Position numbers and translations under genes: made by a program | Part shown: one piece after another, positions 189-9,083 of the stretch | How positions within the stretch are numbered: the first letter of the stretch is position 1 | Layout: every line of letters begins with the position of its first letter | Notes under the pieces: generated by a model | The model's database searches: none | What the model saw: only the letters and a program-made list of their open reading frames with translations | What the model was told of the DNA's origin: nothing | From: Actinomycetes bacterium | Lineage (GTDB): Bacteria > Actinomycetota > Acidimicrobiia > Acidimicrobiales > Bog-793 | Assembly: GCA_021823365.1 (NCBI GenBank) | Contig: JAKAOD010000095.1 | Coordinates: forward strand, 1-9,083 | Reading direction: 5' to 3' | DNA length: 9,083 bases

Positions 189-1463
189 GTGACCGCGACC
201 GCACCGGCCGTGCGCCTCGTCCACTTCTCGAGCGTGGTGCGGCGCCCGCTCGTCGACTCGACGGGCGAGCGCGTCGGGCGAGTCGAGGATCTCGTGGTGC
301 ACCTCGGCGCCCCCCACCCGCCGGTCGTCGGTGCGGTGGCACGGATCGCCGGGCGCGACCTCTTCGTCGGCGCCCACGGGATCGACGGCATCGGGAACCG
401 GGAGCTGCGGTTCACGGGCAACAGGGTCGACCTCCGGCGCTTCGAACGCCGGCCCGGCGAGCTGCTTCTCGGGCGCGACCTCCTGGCGAGGCACATCATC
501 AACGTGGCGGGCGGCCGGCTCATCCGCGCCAACGAGATCTACCTGTGCGACGTGAACGGCACCTGGGAGATCATCGGCGTCGACCCGTCACGCAGGGGCG
601 TCCTTCGTCGCCTGCTGCGGGGCCATCTCGGATCGGGCGGCGAGCCTTCCGAGGTCGTGGACTGGGCGAGCATCGAGCCCTTCGTCGGGCACGTCCCCAC
701 TGCGCGGCTCCGCATCCCGCACCGCAAGCTCGCGCGCCTGCACCCGGCCCAGATCGCAGACCTCGTAGAGGCCGCATCCCACGAGGAGGGAGAGGAGATC
801 ATCGAGGCGGTCCGTGCCGACCGGGAGCTCGAGGCCGACGTCTTCGAGGAGCTCGACTCGGAGCACCAGGTCGAGTTCCTCGAGGCGCGCTCCGACCAGG
901 ACGCGGCACGGCTCCTGGCGTCGATGGCACCCGACGACGCCGCCGATCTCATCATGGAGGCGGACCAGGACCGCCGGCTCCGCCTCCTCGAGGCTCTTCC
1001 CCAGCCCCAGCGCCGCAAGGTACGCCTGCTCCTGAACTACAACCCCGACACCGCGGGCGGCCTCATGAGCCCGGATCTCGTCTCCCTGCCCGAATCGGCG
1101 ACCGTGGACGACGCGCTCTCGGCCGTCCGGCACAGCACCGCCGCACCCGAGTCGCTGCACGTCGTGTTCGCTCTCCACGAGGACGGCACGGTCGCGGGCT
1201 CGGCGTCGGTCGTGGCGCTGCTTCGAGCGGAGCCCAGCGCCGCGCTCGCCTCCGTGGTCCGTCCCATTCCCGCCCACCTCCATCCCGACTGGGACCTCGG
1301 CGCGACCGTGCGCAAGATGTCCGACTTCAACTTGATGGTCGCTCCCGTCCTGGATGCCGAGCACCAGCACATCCTGGGTATCGTGACGGTGGACGACGTG
1401 CTGGAGCAGATGCTGCCCACCGGGTGGCGTCGCGACTTCGGGACCATGTCGCCCGAGGACTGA
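189..1463 (+). CDS. Soluble PRC-barrel/MgtE-N/CBS domain protein (Mg2+-sensor-like)
   Basis: This 424-residue protein has no membrane segment. Seen in order: PRC-barrel-like beta segments at about 8-80 and 90-145 (GERVGRVEDLVV; ARHIINVAGGRLI); an MgtE N-terminal helical-repeat domain at about 180-285 (LHPAQIADLVE, MAPDDAADLI); the MgtE junction NPDTAGGLMSP at 285-295 opening CBS 1; and CBS 2 at about 352-410 ending in GIVTVDDVLEQM. In MgtE channels the N and CBS domains bind Mg2+ in the cytosol and gate the pore. Here the chain stops (GWRRDFGTMSPED) where the plug helix and pore of MgtE would begin. It therefore cannot transport by itself and is probably a Mg2+ (or nucleotide) sensor or regulatory partner. 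The neighbouring Nramp transporter 204 nt downstream on the same strand is the obvious partner, by inference. The GTG start is chosen because PRC-like sequence begins within ten residues. No SD is visible, so translation may be leaderless. Confidence 0.9.
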   Translation: MTATAPAVRLVHFSSVVRRPLVDSTGERVGRVEDLVVHLGAPHPPVVGAVARIAGRDLFVGAHGIDGIGNRELRFTGNRVDLRRFERRPGELLLGRDLLARHIINVAGGRLIRANEIYLCDVNGTWEIIGVDPSRRGVLRRLLRGHLGSGGEPSEVVDWASIEPFVGHVPTARLRIPHRKLARLHPAQIADLVEAASHEEGEEIIEAVRADRELEADVFEELDSEHQVEFLEARSDQDAARLLASMAPDDAADLIMEADQDRRLRLLEALPQPQRRKVRLLLNYNPDTAGGLMSPDLVSLPESATVDDALSAVRHSTAAPESLHVVFALHEDGTVAGSASVVALLRAEPSAALASVVRPIPAHLHPDWDLGATVRKMSDFNLMVAPVLDAEHQHILGIVTVDDVLEQMLPTGWRRDFGTMSPED

Positions 1464-1506
1464 CGAGACGTGCACAGATCGATGGAACCCCCAAATACCA
1501 AGTGGC

Positions 1507-1525
1507 CGGGGCCGACGGCGCCCCG
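1507..1525 (+). terminator. Small GC stem-loop after the sensor gene
   Basis: Six-base arms CGGGGC (1507-1512) and GCCCCG (1520-1525) enclose a 7-nt loop, 44 nt after the stop of the MgtE-N/CBS gene. There is no T-run after it, so it is only a weak terminator or processing candidate. If it does not terminate, the sensor and transporter genes could share a transcript. Confidence 0.25.
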
Positions 1526-1574
1526 CGTCACCACTGACAGAACCGACGGACCGCCACGCCGGCGGGCCGTGCGC

Positions 1575-1610
1575 TCGCTCTCGGGAGCGGCGCGGGCTCA
1601 CACTCCGCGC
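1575..1610 (+). promoter_or_regulatory. Possible structured 5' leader of the Nramp gene
   Basis: Two adjacent stem-loops can form: CGCTC/GAGCG (1576-1580 with 1585-1589, loop TCGG) and GCGCGG/CCGCGC (1590-1595 with 1605-1610, 9-nt loop). Both have competitors. CGGGAG at 1582-1587 can instead pair with CTCCCG at 1615-1620, and GCTCA at 1596-1600 can pair with TGAGC at 1611-1615. Mutually exclusive pairing in front of a metal-transporter gene recalls a leader switch, but GC-rich DNA makes such pairings easily. It does not resemble a riboswitch class I can recognise. Confidence 0.25.
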
Positions 1611-1615
1611 TGAGC

Positions 1616-1645
1616 TCCCGGTGGCGTGCGCGCACGCCACCGGGA
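1616..1645. repeat. Perfect 30-bp palindrome
   Basis: Fifteen consecutive base pairs match around the centre 1630/1631, with no mismatch; left arm TCCCGGTGGCGTGCG. The first failure is C1615/C1646. It ends 9 nt before the AGGAGG of the Nramp gene. As DNA it could be an operator for a dimeric regulator. As RNA it would form a 13-bp hairpin with a GCGC loop that could limit access to the ribosome binding site or protect a transcript end. Confidence 0.7.
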
Positions 1646-1654
1646 CCAGCCGAG

Positions 1655-1660
1655 AGGAGG
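1655..1660 (+). promoter_or_regulatory. Strong ribosome binding site fixing the Nramp start
   Basis: AGGAGG followed by TG (AGGAGGTG, 1655-1662) is close to a perfect anti-16S match and lies 7 nt before the ATG at 1668. It decides the start against the in-frame GTG at 1626, which lies inside the palindrome. It is by far the best Shine-Dalgarno sequence in the window. Confidence 0.85.
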
Positions 1661-1667
1661 TGAGCCA

Positions 1668-3356
1668 ATGGCAGAGACCGGGGCCGGAGCCCACCGTTCG
1701 GAGCCCCGCACCCCCGGAGCCCGCCTCTCGGTCGACGACGAGCTCGGGGCCAGGCCCTCGGCAGTCCTCGACGAGGCGCACCTGGGGGACATCCGGGGGG
1801 CGTTCGGCACCGTCCGCCAGTTCGACGCCGAGTCGCGCCGTTCCTGGAAGCGGCGCCTGCTCACGCTCCTCGCCATCCTCGGCCCCGGGATCATCGTCAT
1901 GGTGGGCGACAACGACGCCGGTGGTGTCGCCACCTACGCCCAGGCGGCGCAGAACTACGGCCTCACGCTCTTGTGGACGCTCCCCCTCCTCGTCCCGGTG
2001 CTCGTCGTCAACCAGGAGATGGTCGTCCGTCTCGGCGCGGTCACGGGCGTGGGGCACGCCCGGCTCATCAACGAGCGGTTCGGCAAGTTCTGGGGCGCCT
2101 TCTCGGTGGGCGACCTCTTCATCTTGAACTTCCTCACGATCACGACCGAGTTCATCGGGGTGAACCTCGCGCTCGCCTACTTCGGAGTGAGCCCGTACGT
2201 CTCGGTGCCCATCGCCGCAGCAGCCCTGGTGGCGATGACCGCGACGGGCAGCTTCCGGCGGTGGGAGCGCTTCATGTTCGTCTTCATCGTCGCCAACTTC
2301 CTCGTGATCCCCCTGGCGGTCTTCAGCCACCCGCATGCGTCCGCCTTCTTCAAGAGCTTCGTCGTTCCCGGCGTCCACGGCGGCTTCACGTCGACCTCGG
2401 TCCTCCTCATCATCGCCATCGTCGGGACGACGGTCGCGCCCTGGCAGCTCTTCTTCCAGCAGTCCAACATCGTGGACAAGCGGATCACGCCCCGGTGGAT
2501 CTCCTACGAGCGCGCAGACACCGTCATCGGTTCGTTGGTCACGGTCTTCGCTGCGTCGCTGATCATGGCGGTGGTGGCCGCCGCCTTCTCCGGACACCCG
2601 CTCTTCGGGCACTTCACCAACGCCGGCGCCGTCGCCCGCGGGCTCTCGCGCGAGGTCGGCCACGCAACGGGCGCAATCTTCTCGGTCATCCTCCTCAACG
2701 CGTCGCTCATCGGCGCTGCCTCGGTCACCCTCGCCACCTCCTACGCCTTCGGCGATGTCTTCGGAGCACGGCACTCGCTGCACCGGAGCTGGCGCGAGGC
2801 GAAGTTCTTCTATGCCTCGTTCAGCGTGATGGTGGTGCTCGCCGCGGCGATCGTCCTTGTCCCCGGGGCGCCGCTCGGTCTCATCACCACGGGGGTCCAG
2901 GCGCTCGCCGGTGTCCTCCTCCCGAGCGCCACCGTCTTCCTCCTGCTGCTCTGCAACGACAAAGAGGTGCTCGGTCCCTGGGTGAACCGGCCGTGGCTCA
3001 ACGTGATCGCGTTCGGGGTCGTCTCTGTGCTCCTGGTCCTGTCCCTGTTGCTCATGGCGACGACGGTCTTCCCCCACCTCGACGTCCGGGACCTCGCCTT
3101 CGGGCTGGGGGCAGCGCTCGCTCTCGTGTACGCGGTGGGGGGAGTCTCGTACTGGAGGGTGCTGCAGCGGCGGCCTCCCGAGCCGCCGATGCCCCGCGCC
3201 CGCAGAGACCACTGGCGGATGCCGCCGCTCAACCGCTTGCAACGGCCCGTCTGGTCGCGAGGCCGGCTCGTCGCCATGTACCTGCTGCGCGGCTACCTGG
3301 TGTGCGCGGTGATGTTGCTCGTGGTGAAGGCGCTCCAGCTCGGCATCCACGGCTGA
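1668..3356 (+). CDS. Divergent Nramp-family divalent metal transporter
   Basis: This 562-residue integral membrane protein has a hydrophilic N-terminus (1-62) and about 12 hydrophobic segments from residue 65 on. The first helix carries GPGIIVMVGDNDAGG (72-86) where classical Nramp/MntH proteins have DPGN: the metal-binding Asp is kept (D83) but the Asn position is Gly86. The sixth helix carries TTVAPWQLFFQQS (254-266) where MntH has MPH: the Met that favours Mn2+/Fe2+ is Ala257 and the His is Trp259. From memory, loss of that Met to Ala is a mark of Nramp-related Mg2+ transporters (NRMT). The upstream gene encodes MgtE sensor domains, which fits Mg2+ as substrate, but this is inference. The family normally couples transport to protons, and whether this one does is unknown. 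A basic loop around 500-530 precedes a last hydrophobic segment (about 535-557), making it longer than MntH (about 410 residues). The ATG start is set by an excellent AGGAGG. Expression may be controlled through the palindrome just upstream. Confidence 0.93.
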   Translation: MAETGAGAHRSEPRTPGARLSVDDELGARPSAVLDEAHLGDIRGAFGTVRQFDAESRRSWKRRLLTLLAILGPGIIVMVGDNDAGGVATYAQAAQNYGLTLLWTLPLLVPVLVVNQEMVVRLGAVTGVGHARLINERFGKFWGAFSVGDLFILNFLTITTEFIGVNLALAYFGVSPYVSVPIAAAALVAMTATGSFRRWERFMFVFIVANFLVIPLAVFSHPHASAFFKSFVVPGVHGGFTSTSVLLIIAIVGTTVAPWQLFFQQSNIVDKRITPRWISYERADTVIGSLVTVFAASLIMAVVAAAFSGHPLFGHFTNAGAVARGLSREVGHATGAIFSVILLNASLIGAASVTLATSYAFGDVFGARHSLHRSWREAKFFYASFSVMVVLAAAIVLVPGAPLGLITTGVQALAGVLLPSATVFLLLLCNDKEVLGPWVNRPWLNVIAFGVVSVLLVLSLLLMATTVFPHLDVRDLAFGLGAALALVYAVGGVSYWRVLQRRPPEPPMPRARRDHWRMPPLNRLQRPVWSRGRLVAMYLLRGYLVCAVMLLVVKALQLGIHG

Positions 3357-3470: not shown

Positions 3471-4937
3471 TTGCCTGAGGGTCTACGTCGCTCGTGGCGC
3501 GAGGTGAAGCAGTCCTGGGACCGCTCCCGGACGATCGTCCTTCCCGCCCCGGTTGCCCCGGCCCCCGCCGGCCCTGAAGGACTGCGCGTCGCCTTCCTCG
3601 TCTATCGGGGGAACCCTCAGTGCGGCGGCCAGGGGGTCTACACGCGTCACCTCACGCGTGAGCTGGTCGCGCTCGGCCACTCGGTCACGGTGCTCGCGGG
3701 CCAGCCGTGGCCGGAGCTCGACCCCGGGGTGGGGTTCGTCCCCCTGCCGGGCCTCGACCTCTACCGCGAGCCCGACCCGTTCCGCCTGCCCCACCCCCGA
3801 GAGGTCCACGACCTGGCCGCGGCCGCGGAGCTCGGCGTGATGCTGACGGGCGGCTTCGGCGAGCCCTTCGCGTTCTCCCTCCGTGCGAGGCGAGCCCTCC
3901 GCCTTCGACGCGGCGAGTTCGACCTGGTCCACGACAACCAGTGCCTCGGCACGGGGATGCTCGGCATCCTGGCCGACGGCTGGCCCCTCCTCACGACCCT
4001 CCACCATCCGATCACCGTCGATCGCCAGCTCGCGCTCAGCCACGCATCCGGGCTGTACCAGCGGCTCGGGACGAGACGGTGGTTCGGCTTCCTCGGGATG
4101 CAGATGCGGGTCGCACGGCACCTTCCCGCGGTGGTCACGGTCTCGAACTCGTCGCGCAGGGACATCGCCGCGCAGATGGGGGTCGCTCCAGAGCGCATGA
4201 CCGTCGTGCCCGTCGGCGTGGACCACGACGTCTTCCGTCCCCGGTCCGACGTCCGTGCCGTCCCCGGCCGCCTGATGGTCACCTCTTCGAGCGACGTGCC
4301 GATGAAGGGGCTGGTGCCGCTGCTCGAAGCGGTGGCCAGGCTGCGCAGTTCCCGCGCCGTCGAGCTCGTCGTCGTCGGCCGGCCGCAGAAAGGCGGGCGT
4401 GTCGATCGCGCGCTCGACCGCCTTGCCCTCCGACCGGCGGTCCGCTTCGTGAGCGGCATCACCGACGACGAGCTCGCGCGCTGCTACGGGGAGGCGGAAG
4501 TGGCGGTCGTCCCTTCGCTCTACGAAGGGTTCTCGCTTCCGGCCGTCGAAGCCATGGCCTGTGGCGTACCCGTCGTGACGACGACCGGCGGCGCGCTCCC
4601 AGAGGTCGTCGGCCGGGACGGCGAGACGGCGGTTCTCGTTCCGCCGGACGACCCCGGAGCGCTCGCGGCAGCGATCGCGGGGCTCCTCGACGATCCCCTG
4701 GCCCGCGCGCGGCTCGGCGCCGCCGGCAGGGCACGCGTCCTCCGTCGCTTCACGTGGCGCGTCACGGCCGAAGGGACGGCGGCGTGCTACCGCGCGCTCC
4801 TCGGCGGCCGTGCGCTCTCGGGGCTCGGACCGGCACCGGGGGAGCAGGGTCCCGACGCGCCCTCCGACGAGCCCCCCGACGCGCCCCCCGACGCGCCGGC
4901 CAGCAAGAGCGCGCTCGTTCGGGCGGCCCAGTGCTGA
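3471..4937 (+). CDS. Family 4 (GT-B fold) glycosyltransferase
   Basis: This 488-residue, probably cytosolic or membrane-associated enzyme should transfer a sugar from a nucleotide donor, with retention of configuration, to an unknown acceptor. The N-terminal Rossmann-like half starts at about residue 38 (LRVAFLVYRGNPQCGGQGVY) and has the glycine-rich acceptor loop CGGQG at 51-55. LHHP lies at 177-180 and TVSNSSRRD at 223-231. The C-terminal donor domain has VVPVGVDHDVFRP (245-257), VVVGRP (300-305) and the hallmark EGFSLPAVE (E352...E360, the E-x7-E pair) followed by MACGVPVV. After about residue 445 the chain turns into a disordered Pro/Asp/Ala tail with DAP repeats. The start is uncertain: TTG 3471 gives 38 residues before the domain, GTG 3504 would give 27, and neither has a clear SD. 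The stop overlaps the methyltransferase start by 7 nt, so the genes are translationally coupled. Donor and acceptor cannot be read from sequence. Confidence 0.93.
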   Translation: MPEGLRRSWREVKQSWDRSRTIVLPAPVAPAPAGPEGLRVAFLVYRGNPQCGGQGVYTRHLTRELVALGHSVTVLAGQPWPELDPGVGFVPLPGLDLYREPDPFRLPHPREVHDLAAAAELGVMLTGGFGEPFAFSLRARRALRLRRGEFDLVHDNQCLGTGMLGILADGWPLLTTLHHPITVDRQLALSHASGLYQRLGTRRWFGFLGMQMRVARHLPAVVTVSNSSRRDIAAQMGVAPERMTVVPVGVDHDVFRPRSDVRAVPGRLMVTSSSDVPMKGLVPLLEAVARLRSSRAVELVVVGRPQKGGRVDRALDRLALRPAVRFVSGITDDELARCYGEAEVAVVPSLYEGFSLPAVEAMACGVPVVTTTGGALPEVVGRDGETAVLVPPDDPGALAAAIAGLLDDPLARARLGAAGRARVLRRFTWRVTAEGTAACYRALLGGRALSGLGPAPGEQGPDAPSDEPPDAPPDAPASKSALVRAAQC

Positions 4938-5701
4938 CCGTCGACTTCGACCGTCTCGGGCTCCGCCCGGGCGACCGGCTGCTCGATCTCGGTTGCGGGT
5001 CGGGCCGGCACGCCTTCGAGGCGGCCCGCCGAGGGTGCGAGGTCGTCGCGCTCGACGCCGGCGCAGACGAGCTCCAAGAAGTCCGGGCGATGTTCCTCGC
5101 GATGCTCGCTGCGGGCGAGCTCGGCGAGCGCACCAGGGCGGGAGCCGTCCGCGCCGACGCGCTCCGCCTTCCCTTCGCCGACGGGGCCTTCGACCGCGTC
5201 GTCGCCGCAGAGGTCCTCGAGCACATCCACGACGACACCCGAGCCATGGCGGAGCTCGCCCGCGTCCTGCGACCCGGGGGCACCATGGCGGTGACCGTGC
5301 CCCGCTGCGGACCCGAGGTGGTCAACTGGCTCCTCTCCGACGCGTACCACGACGTGCCCGGGGGCCACGTGCGCATCTACAGGCTGTCGACGCTCGTGCG
5401 GCGCCTGGGGTCCTGCGGGCTCGTCCCCTCGGGTCGCCACTACGCCCACGGCCTGCACACCCCGTACTGGTGGCTGCGCTGCCTCGTGGGTCCCCAGAAC
5501 GACGCGCATCCCGCGGTCGCCGCGTACCACCGGATCTTGGTGTGGGAGATCGTGAAGCGCCCCCCTCTCACCCGGCTCGCCGCCCGCCTGCTCGACCCGC
5601 TGATCGGGAAGAGCCTCGTCGTCTACCTCAGCAAGCCCGGCGGAGCTTCTGTGCCGGGCCGCCGGCACAGTGGCGAGACGCCGGTGGCGGCGGCAGCATG
5701 A
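4931..5701 (+). CDS. Class I SAM-dependent methyltransferase
   Basis: This 256-residue enzyme has the methyltransferase type 11/25 pattern: motif I LLDLGCGSGRHAFEAA (17-32) for SAM binding, the acidic end of strand 2 at D42 (VVALDAG), RADALRLPFADGAFD (74-88), then VVAAEVLEHI (90-99) with the LEH signature, and LRPGG (113-117). The C-terminal half (about 130-235), with HGLHTPYWWLRCLVG and a late hydrophobic stretch, probably forms the acceptor pocket or touches the membrane. The open frame runs far upstream, but that part lies inside the glycosyltransferase gene. GTG 4931 is preferred because motif I then starts 16 residues in, as is usual. It overlaps the upstream stop by 7 nt and ends in an ATGA overlap with the next gene, so the three genes form one unit. 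It may methylate the glycosylated product of the upstream enzyme; the target is unknown. Confidence 0.9.
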   Translation: MLTVDFDRLGLRPGDRLLDLGCGSGRHAFEAARRGCEVVALDAGADELQEVRAMFLAMLAAGELGERTRAGAVRADALRLPFADGAFDRVVAAEVLEHIHDDTRAMAELARVLRPGGTMAVTVPRCGPEVVNWLLSDAYHDVPGGHVRIYRLSTLVRRLGSCGLVPSGRHYAHGLHTPYWWLRCLVGPQNDAHPAVAAYHRILVWEIVKRPPLTRLAARLLDPLIGKSLVVYLSKPGGASVPGRRHSGETPVAAAA

Positions 5702-6831
5702 CGCTCGGCGCTCGTCGCGACTCGACCGCGCTCGTCCCCGAGGTGCCGGGGGTGCTCAGCTCCGCCGAGGTCTTCGCCAGCGGGTGCGCCATCGCCTCGG
5801 TGCAGCGCGCGGACGGCATGATCCCGTGGTTCCCGGGCGGCCACTGCGATCCCTGGAACCACGTCGAGGCGACGATGGCGCTCACCGTGTGCGGGCTCCT
5901 CGAGGAGGCCGAGGCGGCCTTCGACTGGCTCGCGGCGACGCAGCTCGAGGACGGGAGCTGGTTCAACTACTACGTCGCCGCCGGGGTGAAGGACGCCAGG
6001 ATCGACACGAACGTCTGCGCCTATGTCGCGACGGGGCTGTGGCACCATGCGCTCGCCACCCGAAGCTGCGACCTCCTGGCCCGTCACTGGCCCGTGGTGG
6101 AGCGCGCGATCGACTTCGTGCTGCGCTGGCAGCGACCCGACGGGTCGGTGCGGTGGTCGCTCGACCAAGCCGGGCGCCCCGAGGGCTACGCGCTCCTCAC
6201 CGGGTCGTCGTCCATCTTCCACAGCCTGCGCTGCGCGGTGGCCGCCGCGGAGGCGCTCGATCGACCCCGGCCCGATTGGGAGCTCGCGGCCGCCCGCCTC
6301 GGCCACGCGGTCGCCCGGCACCCGCGCGCGTTCGCGCCGAAGGACGAGTTCGCGATGGACTGGTACTACCCGGTGCTGTCAGGCGTGCTCGGTGGTGAGC
6401 CGGCTCGCCAGAGGCTCGAGGCGACATGGGCGACGTTCGTCATGGACGGCCTCGGCGTCCGCTGCGTGTCAGGCAACGACTGGGTCACCGCGGCGGAGAC
6501 CGCCGAGTGTGCGATCGCGCTCGGCGCCGCGGGCTTGGGGCAGTCCGCTCTGGAGCTCTTCGCGTCGGGACAGGGGCTCCGGCTGCCGGACGGGAGCTAC
6601 TGGACCGGGATGGTCTATCCGGGTGAGGTCACGTTCCCCGGCGGCGAGCGGACTACGTACACCGCGGCCGCGATGGTCCTCGCCGCGGACGCCTTGTCGT
6701 CTGCGTCCGGCGCGTCCGGCCTCTTCCTCGGCGAGGCGCTGCCCAAGGCGATCGACCTTGCCGAGCCCTTCTGCACGAGCGACGTCCAATGCCTCGCAGG
6801 GACCGGCGCCGACCTGCCCGACGACCGCTGA
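5698..6831 (+). CDS. Alpha/alpha-toroid protein (prenyltransferase/six-hairpin-like), function unknown
   Basis: This 377-residue protein lacks a signal peptide or membrane helix. Its repeated helical hairpins each end in a DGS-aromatic turn: QLEDGSWFNYY (82-92), WQRPDGSVRW (144-153) and LRLPDGSYW (294-302). The first resembles a QW motif of terpene cyclases and prenyltransferases (Q-x2-DGSW). The overall pattern also fits six-hairpin glycosidase-like barrels. Other notable residues are FPGGHCDPWNHVEATMAL (45-62), RIDTNVCAYVATGLWHH (101-117), MDWYYPVLSGVLGG (220-233) and GNDWVTAAETAECAIAL (259-275). There is no DxDD or DDxxD, so a true terpene cyclase is unlikely. An enzyme or binding protein acting on a glycan or lipid-linked glycan fits the neighbours. 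ATG 5698 overlaps the methyltransferase stop (ATGA), giving tight translational coupling. The stop is followed by a 98-base convergent junction. The fold is fairly clear; the activity is not. Confidence 0.85.
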   Translation: MTLGARRDSTALVPEVPGVLSSAEVFASGCAIASVQRADGMIPWFPGGHCDPWNHVEATMALTVCGLLEEAEAAFDWLAATQLEDGSWFNYYVAAGVKDARIDTNVCAYVATGLWHHALATRSCDLLARHWPVVERAIDFVLRWQRPDGSVRWSLDQAGRPEGYALLTGSSSIFHSLRCAVAAAEALDRPRPDWELAAARLGHAVARHPRAFAPKDEFAMDWYYPVLSGVLGGEPARQRLEATWATFVMDGLGVRCVSGNDWVTAAETAECAIALGAAGLGQSALELFASGQGLRLPDGSYWTGMVYPGEVTFPGGERTTYTAAAMVLAADALSSASGASGLFLGEALPKAIDLAEPFCTSDVQCLAGTGADLPDDR

Positions 6832-6929: not shown

Positions 6930-7616
6930 TCAGTGCTCGCTCGCACGCAGGCGCCGCAGCACGCGCAGGCTTCCGCACTCCGCGTCCTCCTCCCAGTCCC
7001 CTGAGCTCGCGGCGTCGCACCACACCTCGTAAGGGGGTCGTCCGCCCCCGGCGGGGTCGGGGAACACGTCGTGGATCGCGAGCAGCCCACCTGCAGCGAC
7101 GAGGGGTGCCCAGCCTCGGTAGTCGGCCCATGCGGGTCCCTCGCCGTGACCGCCGTCGATGAAGCAGAAGTCGACCATGGTCGTCCAGCAGGATGCGACG
7201 GTCGGCGAGTCGCCGACGACCCCCACGACGACGCCTTCGAGGCGCGCGTCGGCGATCGAGCGGCGCCAGGACGGCAGCGTGTCGATCCTCCCGTCCCTGG
7301 GCTCGACGAGGTCCGGCTCGTGATGCTCCCATCCGGGCTGGTTCTCCTCGGAGCCATGGTGGTGGTCGACGCTGAAGAGGACCGCCCCGGTGGCTTCGGC
7401 CGCGGCGCCGAGGTAGATCGTCGACTTCCCGCACCATGCGCCCACCTCGACGAAGACGGGCGGTCCGGCGCGCCGCGCGGCATCACCCCCGCGCGCGCCA
7501 CGCGCGGCCTCACCCGCGCGCCGCGCCGCTCCGTAGAGCGCAGCACCCTCCTCGTCGGGCATGAAGCCGCGGGTCGACCGCGCGAGCGTGAAGAGCTCGT
7601 CCTCGCGGTCCGTCAC
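6930..7616 (-). CDS. Class I SAM-dependent methyltransferase (methyltransferase 24/CmcI-like)
   Basis: This 228-residue protein has the compact Rossmann methyltransferase layout: FVEVGAWCGKSTIYLG (55-70) as motif I (E57-x-G-x3-GKST), VDHHHGSEENQ (83-93) at the end of strand 2, MVDFCFIDGGHGEGPAWADY (147-166) with the D-G-x-H signature of the type 24/CmcI-like group, and GGLLAIHDVFPDP (176-188) with its characteristic HD. The related groups O-methylate sugars, macrolides and other natural products, often with a divalent metal; the metal need here is not shown. Start GTG 7616 forms a GTGA overlap with the stop of the upstream GDT1-like gene, so it is the last gene of a leftward operon. An upstream extension to 7946 would run inside that gene and is rejected. 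It faces the glycosyltransferase operon, so a shared pathway with the other methyltransferase is possible but unproven. Confidence 0.88.
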   Translation of the reverse strand: MTDREDELFTLARSTRGFMPDEEGAALYGAARRAGEAARGARGGDAARRAGPPVFVEVGAWCGKSTIYLGAAAEATGAVLFSVDHHHGSEENQPGWEHHEPDLVEPRDGRIDTLPSWRRSIADARLEGVVVGVVGDSPTVASCWTTMVDFCFIDGGHGEGPAWADYRGWAPLVAAGGLLAIHDVFPDPAGGGRPPYEVWCDAASSGDWEEDAECGSLRVLRRLRASEH

Positions 7617-8209
7617 GTGGCGAGAGCGTAGATGCCGTACGCGGCGAACCCGAGGAGCGCGAGACCGCCAGCCCGCCGGATCCATTCGAGAGGCAGCACT
7701 CGAAGGAGCGCCCGGCCGCCGAAGGCGCCGAGTGCCGAAGCTCCGAGCAGGCCGGCGTACGCGCCCACGAACACGGCCCACGGATCGTGGTACTTGCCTT
7801 CGAGGTTGATCGTGAGCAGCTGGGTGAGGTCGCCGAGCTCCCCGACGACGATGACGATGAACGCGGTGCCGACCACCTGCCAGGGACGGGTCGGCGAGGG
7901 TTGGACGCGGTCGGCCTCTTGCTCGCCTCTCTTCTGCTCGCGCCACTCGGGAACGACGAGGAGCAGCACCGCGCCGACGAAGAACAGAGCCGTCACCACG
8001 ATCTCGAGCGCCTGGTGGGGGAGGAGCTCGATCGCGCGTCCTGCGGCGACGGCGATCCCGACCTGGACCAGGAACGCCCCGGCGGCACCCAGCCAGACGA
8101 GGACCGGCCGGCTCCGGCTCCCCATCACGAGGGTGGCGACCATCGTCTTGTCAGGCAGCTCGGCTGCTGCGACGAGCACGAAGACGGTGGCGACGACTCC
8201 CGCGCTCAC
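7613..8209 (-). CDS. GDT1/TMEM165 (UPF0016)-family cation transporter
   Basis: This 198-residue membrane protein has six hydrophobic segments (about 5-28, 36-56, 67-87, 112-135, 143-165, 175-196) in two halves joined by a charged loop (88-110). The size and duplicated layout match the family, whose studied members (yeast Gdt1, human TMEM165, bacterial MneA) move Mn2+ or Ca2+ out of the cytosol, probably in exchange for protons. The family signature E-x-G-D-(K/R)-(T/S) appears once per half but altered: ELPDKT at 17-22 (Pro for Gly) and ELGDLT at 124-129 (Leu for Lys/Arg). The acidic pairs E17/D20 and E124/D127 that would bind the ion are kept. GTG 8209 is chosen because the first membrane helix then starts at the N-terminus; it lies 16 nt after the aminopeptidase stop behind a weak GGGGCGAG. 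Mn2+ export is the likeliest role by family, not proven here. Confidence 0.88.
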   Translation of the reverse strand: MSAGVVATVFVLVAAAELPDKTMVATLVMGSRSRPVLVWLGAAGAFLVQVGIAVAAGRAIELLPHQALEIVVTALFFVGAVLLLVVPEWREQKRGEQEADRVQPSPTRPWQVVGTAFIVIVVGELGDLTQLLTINLEGKYHDPWAVFVGAYAGLLGASALGAFGGRALLRVLPLEWIRRAGGLALLGFAAYGIYALAT

Positions 8210-8225
8210 GCCGGCTCGCCCCGGC

Positions 8226-9083
8226 TCAGTGCGGCACGATCCCGAGCTCGCCGCCGAGACGCCCGCGCATACGGGCGCCGAAGCGCACGTGCACCGCGAG
8301 CTGCTCGAGGGTCTGCACGACGGTCCGCTGGCCGACCGCCAGCGGGTGGTCGGTGCAAAAGCGCGTGACGTCCGCGGCGAGCGCGGGGTCACGGCAGAGG
8401 GTACGCACGCCGGCGAGCATCGCGGCGTGGTTCACGTCGGGGAACCGGTCCAAGAGGAGCGGCCACTCGGACTTCACCCACTCCCAGGCCGTCGGGCCGC
8501 CCACCCGGTTGGCGAGGAGGGCCCGCACGACGAAGGGCCCGTCCTGGCGCCGGACCTCGCCGAGCGCCAGCTCGAAGGTGCGGCGGCAGAGACCCAGGTC
8601 CGCGAACGAGCCGAGCACGAAGAGATGGCGGCGCTCCTCTTGCGGGTTGGCAGGATGGCGGTAGCGGTCCAGCACCGCGTCGTAGTCGCTCTCTTGACCC
8701 TGGTCGGCGACCACGGCGAGCACCGCCGCCTCGAGGTTCGCGTCGATCCAGTCCTTTCCCGCGCAGCGTGCGGCGAACCGGCGCGCGGCCTCGGTGCGGA
8801 CCTGCTGTGTGCCGCCCGTCGTCCCGAGCGTCTCGACGAGGAGTGCCCGGAGCGTGGGGACGCGCTCGCCTTCCCCTTCCCGAGGGTCCCAGCCGAGGGC
8901 CGCCGCGCGCGGTCCCAGCAGGTCCTGCGCGGCGGCCTCCACCACCTGACGGTCGGCGTCGTCGGCGATGCGATCGCACAGGCGGAGCGCGGAGACGGCG
9001 GCGTGGTAGGTCTCGGGCTCGTCGTCGCCGAGCCGGGCGGCGAGCGCCAAGAGCTCGCCGAGCTCCGCCTGCCCGCTCAGCAC
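8226..9083 (-). CDS. pepN: M1-family aminopeptidase, C-terminal part (cut by window edge)
   Basis: The visible 285 residues form the helical-repeat C-terminal (ERAP1_C-type) domain of an aminopeptidase N-like enzyme. Typical stretches are KDWIDANLEAAVLAVVADQG, YDAVLDRYRHPANPQEERRH, LFVLGSFADLGLCRRTFELAL and AWEWVKSEWPLLLDRF. The catalytic zinc domain with HExxH and GAMEN would lie right of base 9083, so activity cannot be judged here. The apparent GTG at 9083-9081 sits at the window edge and is most likely an internal Val codon. Enzymes of this type trim N-terminal residues from peptides in the cytosol. The gene leads the leftward operon, with the GDT1-like transporter starting 16 nt after its stop. 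The domain call is strong; the gene symbol is by family only. Confidence 0.87.
   Translation of the reverse strand: MLSGQAELGELLALAARLGDDEPETYHAAVSALRLCDRIADDADRQVVEAAAQDLLGPRAAALGWDPREGEGERVPTLRALLVETLGTTGGTQQVRTEAARRFAARCAGKDWIDANLEAAVLAVVADQGQESDYDAVLDRYRHPANPQEERRHLFVLGSFADLGLCRRTFELALGEVRRQDGPFVVRALLANRVGGPTAWEWVKSEWPLLLDRFPDVNHAAMLAGVRTLCRDPALAADVTRFCTDHPLAVGQRTVVQTLEQLAVHVRFGARMRGRLGGELGIVPH

Follow-up and report, generated by a model that had tools for sequence, protein, structure and literature searches.

Parts of the MgtE magnesium channel have been linked to Nramp-type metal carriers before. Shin et al. (2014) reported that most NrmT members have an adjacent gene for the N-terminal cytoplasmic domain of MgtE, and they speculated that this MgtE-like fragment might serve in feedback regulation or as a chaperone (PMC4072509). 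Its role was left open at the time. NRMT carriers are recognized by the metal-site signature DxxG - TxxA/T (PMC8806188). Here, we describe a pair of this kind in 9,083 nucleotides of GC-rich DNA from an acidimicrobial actinobacterium (contig JAKAOD010000095.1 of assembly GCA_021823365.1; hereafter, the window), where a gene for a stand-alone MgtE-type sensor is followed on the same strand, after a gap of 204 nt, by an Nramp gene. The nearest record is the metagenome-assembled genome MAS3.bin166 (locus L001), in which the sensor is 100% and the Nramp 99% identical. The interpretation that we favor, and regard as fairly probable, is that the two genes form a magnesium-uptake unit, consisting of an NRMT Mg2+ importer and an MgtE-derived cytosolic sensor that curbs import once Mg2+ is abundant.

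The sensor, the carrier, and their pairing

The features that bear on this interpretation are the following, with sensor residues numbered as in TtMgtE (sites taken from PMC5882242 and PMC5529423).

189..1463, + strand: MgtE-type sensor of 424 aa, encoded as a stand-alone protein (PRC-like region followed by MgtE_N and a CBS pair; neither pore nor plug helix)
216..587, + strand: PRC-like, all-beta N-terminal region, residues ~10-133 (Pfam PRC below cut-off; beta strands in the AlphaFold2 [AF2] model)
738..1049, + strand: MgtE_N domain (Pfam), residues 184-287, with Asp in place of E59 and equivalents of D91 and D95 retained
1062..1412, + strand: CBS pair, with D247 retained, D226 replaced by Asn, D250 replaced by Glu, and the ATP-contact residues gone
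1668..3356, + strand: NRMT-type Nramp, 562 aa from the ATG, longer than EleNRMT at both ends
1914..1925, + strand: metal-site motif DAGG of transmembrane helix 1 (classical DPGN)
2427..2438, + strand: metal-site motif TTVA of transmembrane helix 6 (classical A..M)

The initial annotation had read the first gene as MgtE N and CBS domains without their pore, and our results bear this out. Pfam recognizes MgtE_N (E 1e-19) and CBS (E 2e-11) in the window sensor and finds no PF01769 pore domain with D432, while the best solved relatives are the cytosolic domains of MgtE. The AF2 model of the sensor (mean pLDDT 82, pTM 0.54) matches MgtE cytosolic-domain chains with a target TM score of 0.74-0.85. 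Furthermore, the protein ends 18 residues past the D250 column, as read on the near-identical L145. The PRC assignment is less clear-cut, with a score of 18.3 versus the Pfam cut-off of 21.2 bits, and is above the cut-off in relatives such as L116.

The second gene encodes an Nramp (Pfam E 5e-70), for which an alternative GTG start at 1626 would give 576 aa. That its metal site is nonclassical had also been anticipated, and the site can now be named, since DAGG and TTVA together make up the NRMT signature. The best solved relative is EleNRMT (7qia; E 2e-63, with the runner-up at 4e-17), to which the window Nramp is 34% identical and with which it falls into one branch of 68 rows (SH-aLRT 98) in a quick tree of 147 rows. 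Among the Nramps of the family, 76 of 77 have DxxG-TxxA, and 1 was unreadable. An identity as a classical Mn/Fe-type Nramp (MntH) was therefore rejected, based on the absence of DPGN and A..M and on the placement with NRMT.

Our survey of gene neighborhoods upheld the adjacency of the two genes. Across 80 homologous loci, in which the sensor is 59-100% identical, the next gene downstream on the same strand is an Nramp in 77, and the remaining three contigs end at most 154 nt past the sensor. The distance between the two genes is 39-566 nt in 76 loci and 2,058 nt in L045. Where at least 5.5 kb of downstream sequence was available, the Nramp was kept in 56/56 loci versus 20/56 for the following gene, a glycosyltransferase, and 4/56 for a GDT1 gene, so the pairing exceeds general conservation of gene order. 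The window pair matches the arrangement described in PMC4072509, in which an NRMT gene adjoins an MgtE-like gene that lacks the pore.

A similar pattern emerged from a wider sample of 197 Actinomycetota genomes, in which we sorted 150 MgtE_N matches, among those listed, by the presence of a nearby pore. An MgtE pore was close downstream of 62 matches and missing from 88. An Nramp lay within 6 kb of 37 of the listed pore-less matches but none of the 62 pore-bearing ones. Of these adjacent pairs, 36 are on the same strand (3 with the Nramp upstream) and 1 is on opposite strands. The other 51 listed pore-less matches comprised 26 beside DUF1003, 10 long frames, 10 short frames (163-191 aa), and 5 fragments or odd frames; each genome with a long-frame sensor has an Nramp with the NRMT signature on another contig.

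We read the metal site in 137 survey Nramps (the 37 adjacent ones and 100 others), the remaining listed matches being mostly weak or fragmentary. All 37 sensor-adjacent Nramps are of NRMT type (35 DxxG with TxxA/T and 2 GxxG with TxxA), while the 100 others include 31 of the A..M type, 17 with an NRMT-like pattern, and 52 with other residues; none of the 31 A..M-type Nramps adjoins a sensor. The association of adjacency with NRMT type has a Fisher P of 1e-20, which is descriptive only, because the rows are related. In the tree, all 47 sensor-adjacent rows (37 from the survey, 9 family loci, and the window) share the EleNRMT branch, which also holds 20 rows without a linked sensor; these include Nramps of G118 and G057, and of G144 and G001, which carry either an additional unlinked copy or no sensor other than a DUF1003-type one. 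Taken together, the pairing of sensor and Nramp is confined to NRMT-type Nramps in the phylum sample.

One of these pairs is close to the solved carrier. The NRMT of L115 is 95% identical to EleNRMT and has a soluble sensor directly upstream, which makes a direct test possible with existing kinds of assay. As a separate observation, three genomes with a sensor-NRMT pair (G094, G078, and G001), among them the one nearest to the window, also encode a further Nramp whose metal site is mixed, combining DxGS with AVIMPW (L216, L218, and L220).

The metal and the role of the sensor

In a magnesium-uptake unit of this kind, the NRMT-type Nramp would import Mg2+, and perhaps also Mn2+, while the sensor would read internal Mg2+ through its N and CBS domains, its dimer closing on Mg2+ in the manner of MgtE. 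As the plug helix that would otherwise enter a pore is missing, the sensor may instead bind the carrier and slow transport, perhaps anchored to the carrier or the membrane through its PRC-like domain; we infer these steps from binding onward. Mg2+ is the presumed substrate in this organism and the presumed ligand of the sensor, and the contact between the two proteins, the gating, and the lowering of transport are likewise proposed. More generally, the sensors now probably regulate the neighboring transporter.

The residues of the sensor lend this some weight. Asp replaces E59 throughout the family (80/80 sensors), with D91, D95, and D247 retained. D250 is Glu in 75 of the 80, and there is no plug helix, so that E258 and D259 are missing. 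The ATP contacts Y170, R187, D188, N203, V207, and F227 have become V, V, A, R, A, and L in the window sensor. The survey sensors (37 in all) retain D91 in 34 cases, D95 in 28 (with Glu in 5), D247 in 37, and D226 in 8. As a control, 20 intact actinobacterial MgtE proteins kept D91 in 18, D247 in 20, and D226 in 17, with E59 and D95 being variable. Compared with these channels, the acids of the N domain are at least as well kept in the sensors, whereas the site linked to the plug helix is altered. Such retention supports Mg2+ sensing by the predicted sensor, short of proof.

A number of observations weigh against the interpretation. In all 80 family sensors D226, which belongs to site Mg5, is Asn, and the same replacement, combined with D250A, served to disable the Mg5 site in MgtE (PMC5882242/PMC5529423). 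Furthermore, NrmT of Acidobacterium capsulatum fully rescued the Mn defect of B. subtilis, its rescue of the Mg defect was confined to low millimolar Mg, and co-expression of the MgtE-like fragment gave no further rescue (PMC4072509); a rescue assay at low Mg2+ is, however, not suited to reveal inhibition. An M-box Mg riboswitch is absent from 76 of 79 family genomes, and neither an M-box nor any other Rfam family was found in the window up to E 1. Two survey genomes, G118 and G057, have NRMT-like Nramps but no MgtE_N match among those listed. Finally, no natural fusion of sensor and Nramp was found: of 40 long sensor relatives among the best 7986 candidates scored (length-extended query), none is annotated with an Nramp domain, and one, P0242, has an MFS domain.

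Some of this evidence would suit a sensor that does regulate the Nramp but responds to another metal, that is, a Mn-responsive MgtE-like regulator on an importer of Mn2+ or of a different transition metal. We consider this unlikely. In its favor, the A. capsulatum carrier, which lies beside an MgtE-like fragment, behaved in B. subtilis in a way that suggested transport of Mn rather than Mg (PMC4072509), and EcoDMT equipped with NRMT-type site residues still carried Mn (PMC8806188); the replacement of D226 in the window family fits as well. What speaks for magnesium instead is the position of the M-boxes. The only three in the 79 family genomes sit in the sensor-Nramp gap of close relatives (L045, L077, and L078), and the survey contains 18 in 14 of its 197 genomes, of which 10 are just upstream of adjacent pairs (10 of 37), 2 are just upstream of unlinked NRMT genes (G094 and G144), and 6 are elsewhere. 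M-box control is limited to part of the NrmT group (PMC4072509); where it occurs in these gaps or beside these pairs, it points to Mg2+, contrary to the result for A. capsulatum. In addition, the closest solved relative of the window carrier is a Mg transporter, EleNRMT, even if only 34% identical.

Alternatively, the sensor might not be a gate at all but a metal chaperone or buffer, or a reporter of Mg2+ to another protein, with the gene order serving merely for co-expression. A chaperone role was among the proposals of 2014, and the lack of any further effect of co-expression on rescue would be in keeping with it (PMC4072509). Likewise, pore-less sensors of another clade are paired with DUF1003, which implies that this combination of domains is not specific to a single transporter. 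Yet, the pairing with Nramps is limited to the NRMT branch in our sample, and some NRMT-adjacent sensors carry a relict pore and are predicted membrane proteins, an odd form for a chaperone. On balance, we regard a role other than gating as improbable. Very improbable is the view that the sensor works with a distant MgtE pore gene or is merely a functionless, decaying MgtE, for although MgtE_N and CBS are otherwise the cytosolic part of MgtE, a search for a complete pore found no PF01769 in the nearest genome or in 49/49 genomes, of unstated completeness, holding loci L001-L050, so that pairing with a distant pore was rejected, and the conservation of the sensor over 80 loci (59-100% identity) argues that it is not decaying.

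Relict pores, the leader in the gap, and neighboring genes

The origin of the sensors can be approached through a group that is longer than the window protein. Sixteen NRMT-adjacent sensors of Collinsella/Eggerthella-like genomes, a label that rests on P0248 (Collinsella) and on kinship to EleNRMT, have ~200 additional residues.

L116-L118, L121, L124-L127, L129-L134, L137, and L140, with the relative P0248: MgtE-like proteins with a relict membrane domain beside NRMT

When 18 long tails (these 16 and 2 unlinked) were compared by hhalign with 6 MgtE-type membrane tails, of which 3 themselves lack D432, the match had a probability of 99.3 and an E value of 2e-20. The AF2 model of P0248 (mean pLDDT 81, pTM 0.44) aligned with full-length MgtE 2zy9 over 432 columns, at a target TM score of 0.65 and a root-mean-square deviation of 7.9. 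The pore aspartate D432, whose position was verified on the 2yvx chain, is present in 20/20 intact MgtE proteins versus 0/16 relict-pore sensors; in three relict-pore proteins scanned, the Pfam MgtE domain was below cut-off in two and gave no match in one. Four soluble sensors close to the kin of EleNRMT nest within the relict-pore group of the sensor tree (16 rows, 100/96), which indicates that the relict pore was lost there. The soluble clade of the window is placed elsewhere, with weak support (82/74). These comparisons suggest that sensors of this kind can derive from channels by decay of the pore.

The stretch between the two genes has features of its own.

1464..1667, + strand: gap between sensor and Nramp, the site of the M-box in relatives L045, L077, and L078 and of a conserved leader in many others
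1480..1499, + strand: counterpart, in the window, of the conserved gap element (CGATGGAACCCCCAAATACC), linked to the CTGAAACCCCCNAGTACC form by position and likeness only
1616..1645, + strand: perfect 30-nt palindrome directly upstream of the Nramp ribosome-binding site

In the gaps of L030-L080 (e.g., L047:7265-7435), a previously undescribed conserved leader, GTTCNAAGGGGG...CTGAAACCCCCNAGTACC, is followed by a hairpin able to pair with the Nramp ribosome-binding site; the leader has no match in Rfam. AACCCCC with TACC within four bases occurs in 37 of 77 gaps, out of 40 occurrences in total on both strands of all loci (1.84 Mb). A model, R1, built from 30 gaps matched 39 of 82 sources, 9 of them outside the training set and always in the gap. 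Across 30 whole genomes, for which at most the best 150 first-look candidates per genome were scored, it gave a single match in 26 and none in 4, the L001 genome included. R1 found no match in the window gap or in the three M-box loci, and the leader is absent where an M-box occupies the gap.

The downstream hairpin, which would pair the Shine-Dalgarno region, is possible in 22 gaps, with 90% of cells paired. Seventeen cells changed on both sides, versus 7.4 in shuffles, with 0/500 shuffles as high, while pairs with two-sided change numbered 6 versus 3.6 (matched by 26/500) and the count of pair types was matched by 167/500. Three of five measures beat all 500 shuffles, and the pair-count and type-count measures do not; the structure was drawn by eye from the same sequences that were tested, which favors the hairpin. 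Mean folding z was -2.0 in 38 leaders versus -0.4 in 107 control stretches, and Shine-Dalgarno pairing was 0.86 versus 0.71. A stem in the 5' conserved element was rejected, with RNAalifold giving four pairs, none changed on both sides, and RNA structure is not claimed for that element. It is plausible, though short of proof, that the leader is a new cis-regulatory RNA. Palindromes with arms of 8-15 nt occupy the same place as that of the window in L001, L002, L004, L008, L009, L014, and L017, and the palindrome core occurs once in the L001 genome and is absent from the L010 and L045 genomes.

Combining these strands, we tentatively put forward a scenario, possible though short of probable, in which a carrier unrelated to MgtE acquired its regulatory subunit from what had been a gated channel. 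A dead-pore MgtE-like protein would persist beside NRMT in Collinsella/Eggerthella-like genomes, and one group there, and perhaps independently the lineage of the window, would have dropped the pore, leaving a soluble Mg2+ sensor to hold NRMT in check. The Nramp of the window family would also be under a hitherto undescribed leader RNA that replaces the M-box, such that RNA and protein would each sense the metal.

The pore-less sensors that adjoin DUF1003 make up a class of their own.

L092-L098, L100, L101, L105, L106, and L148-L150: stand-alone MgtE sensors paired with DUF1003

These 14 sampled sensors form a separate clade (support 100/100); of the 26 DUF1003 neighbors among the 88 listed pore-less matches, one (G029) is weak and at a contig edge. 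Other genes call for brief mention. Downstream of the window Nramp, a GT4 glycosyltransferase, a methyltransferase, and a cyclase-like frame (3471-6831, + strand) recur close to the sensor in 18-20 of the 56 loci. A gene for a GDT1-family divalent cation/proton antiporter follows (7613-8392, - strand; Pfam E 8e-35), and was rejected as a conserved neighbor, being near the sensor in just 4 of 56 loci. A selenocysteine tRNA (RF01852; L001:368-459, + strand) lies ~5.5 kb upstream of the L001 sensor. Separately, in P0242 (843 aa; contig of 2.27 Mb), an MFS transporter and a PRC-MgtE_N-CBS sensor are read as one protein, which is possibly a natural fusion with another transporter or a gene-calling artefact.

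Comparison with described systems

The pairing and the idea of feedback were already reported in PMC4072509 and are not new. To that work we add the relict pores, the sensors paired with DUF1003, the leader, the M-boxes in the gap of three close relatives, and the residue pattern of the sensor, which retains most Mg-site acids of the N domain but not the ATP-site and plug-helix residues. In its main text, the words Actinobacteria and Eggerthella are absent, and "pore" appears only in a reference. In the literature searched, excerpts of PMC8806188, PMC9606685, and PMC10606218 included, we found no subsequent work that tested what the MgtE-like fragment does. Among main texts searched, only PMC4072509 and PMC8806188 mention NRMT or NrmT together with Nramp and MgtE, and no paper in that literature combined DUF1003 with MgtE, or Nramp with riboswitch and Acidimicrobi. 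If our interpretation is true, it illustrates how a channel can pass on a sensory module to a carrier with a different fold, and Mg2+-type Nramps could be distinguished from Mn/Fe-type ones with the help of their gene neighborhood.

Compared with TtMgtE (2zy9), the window sensor shares the N and CBS domains and most of the Mg-site acids of the N domain, but it lacks the pore, the plug helix, and the ATP-contact residues and has an extra PRC-like domain. The DUF1003-paired sensors resemble the window family in being pore-less MgtE_N proteins with a conserved neighbor, but that neighbor is DUF1003 rather than an Nramp, and their clade is separate. The window carrier has the DxxG-TxxA signature of EleNRMT (7qia; PMC8806188) and shares its branch, yet it is only 34% identical and is extended at both ends. 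In the arrangement of nrmT and the MgtE-like gene (PMC4072509), an NRMT-type Nramp likewise adjoins a gene for the N-terminal cytoplasmic domain of MgtE; the window pair differs in belonging to Actinomycetota, its sensor carries a PRC-like domain, and there is no M-box in the window.

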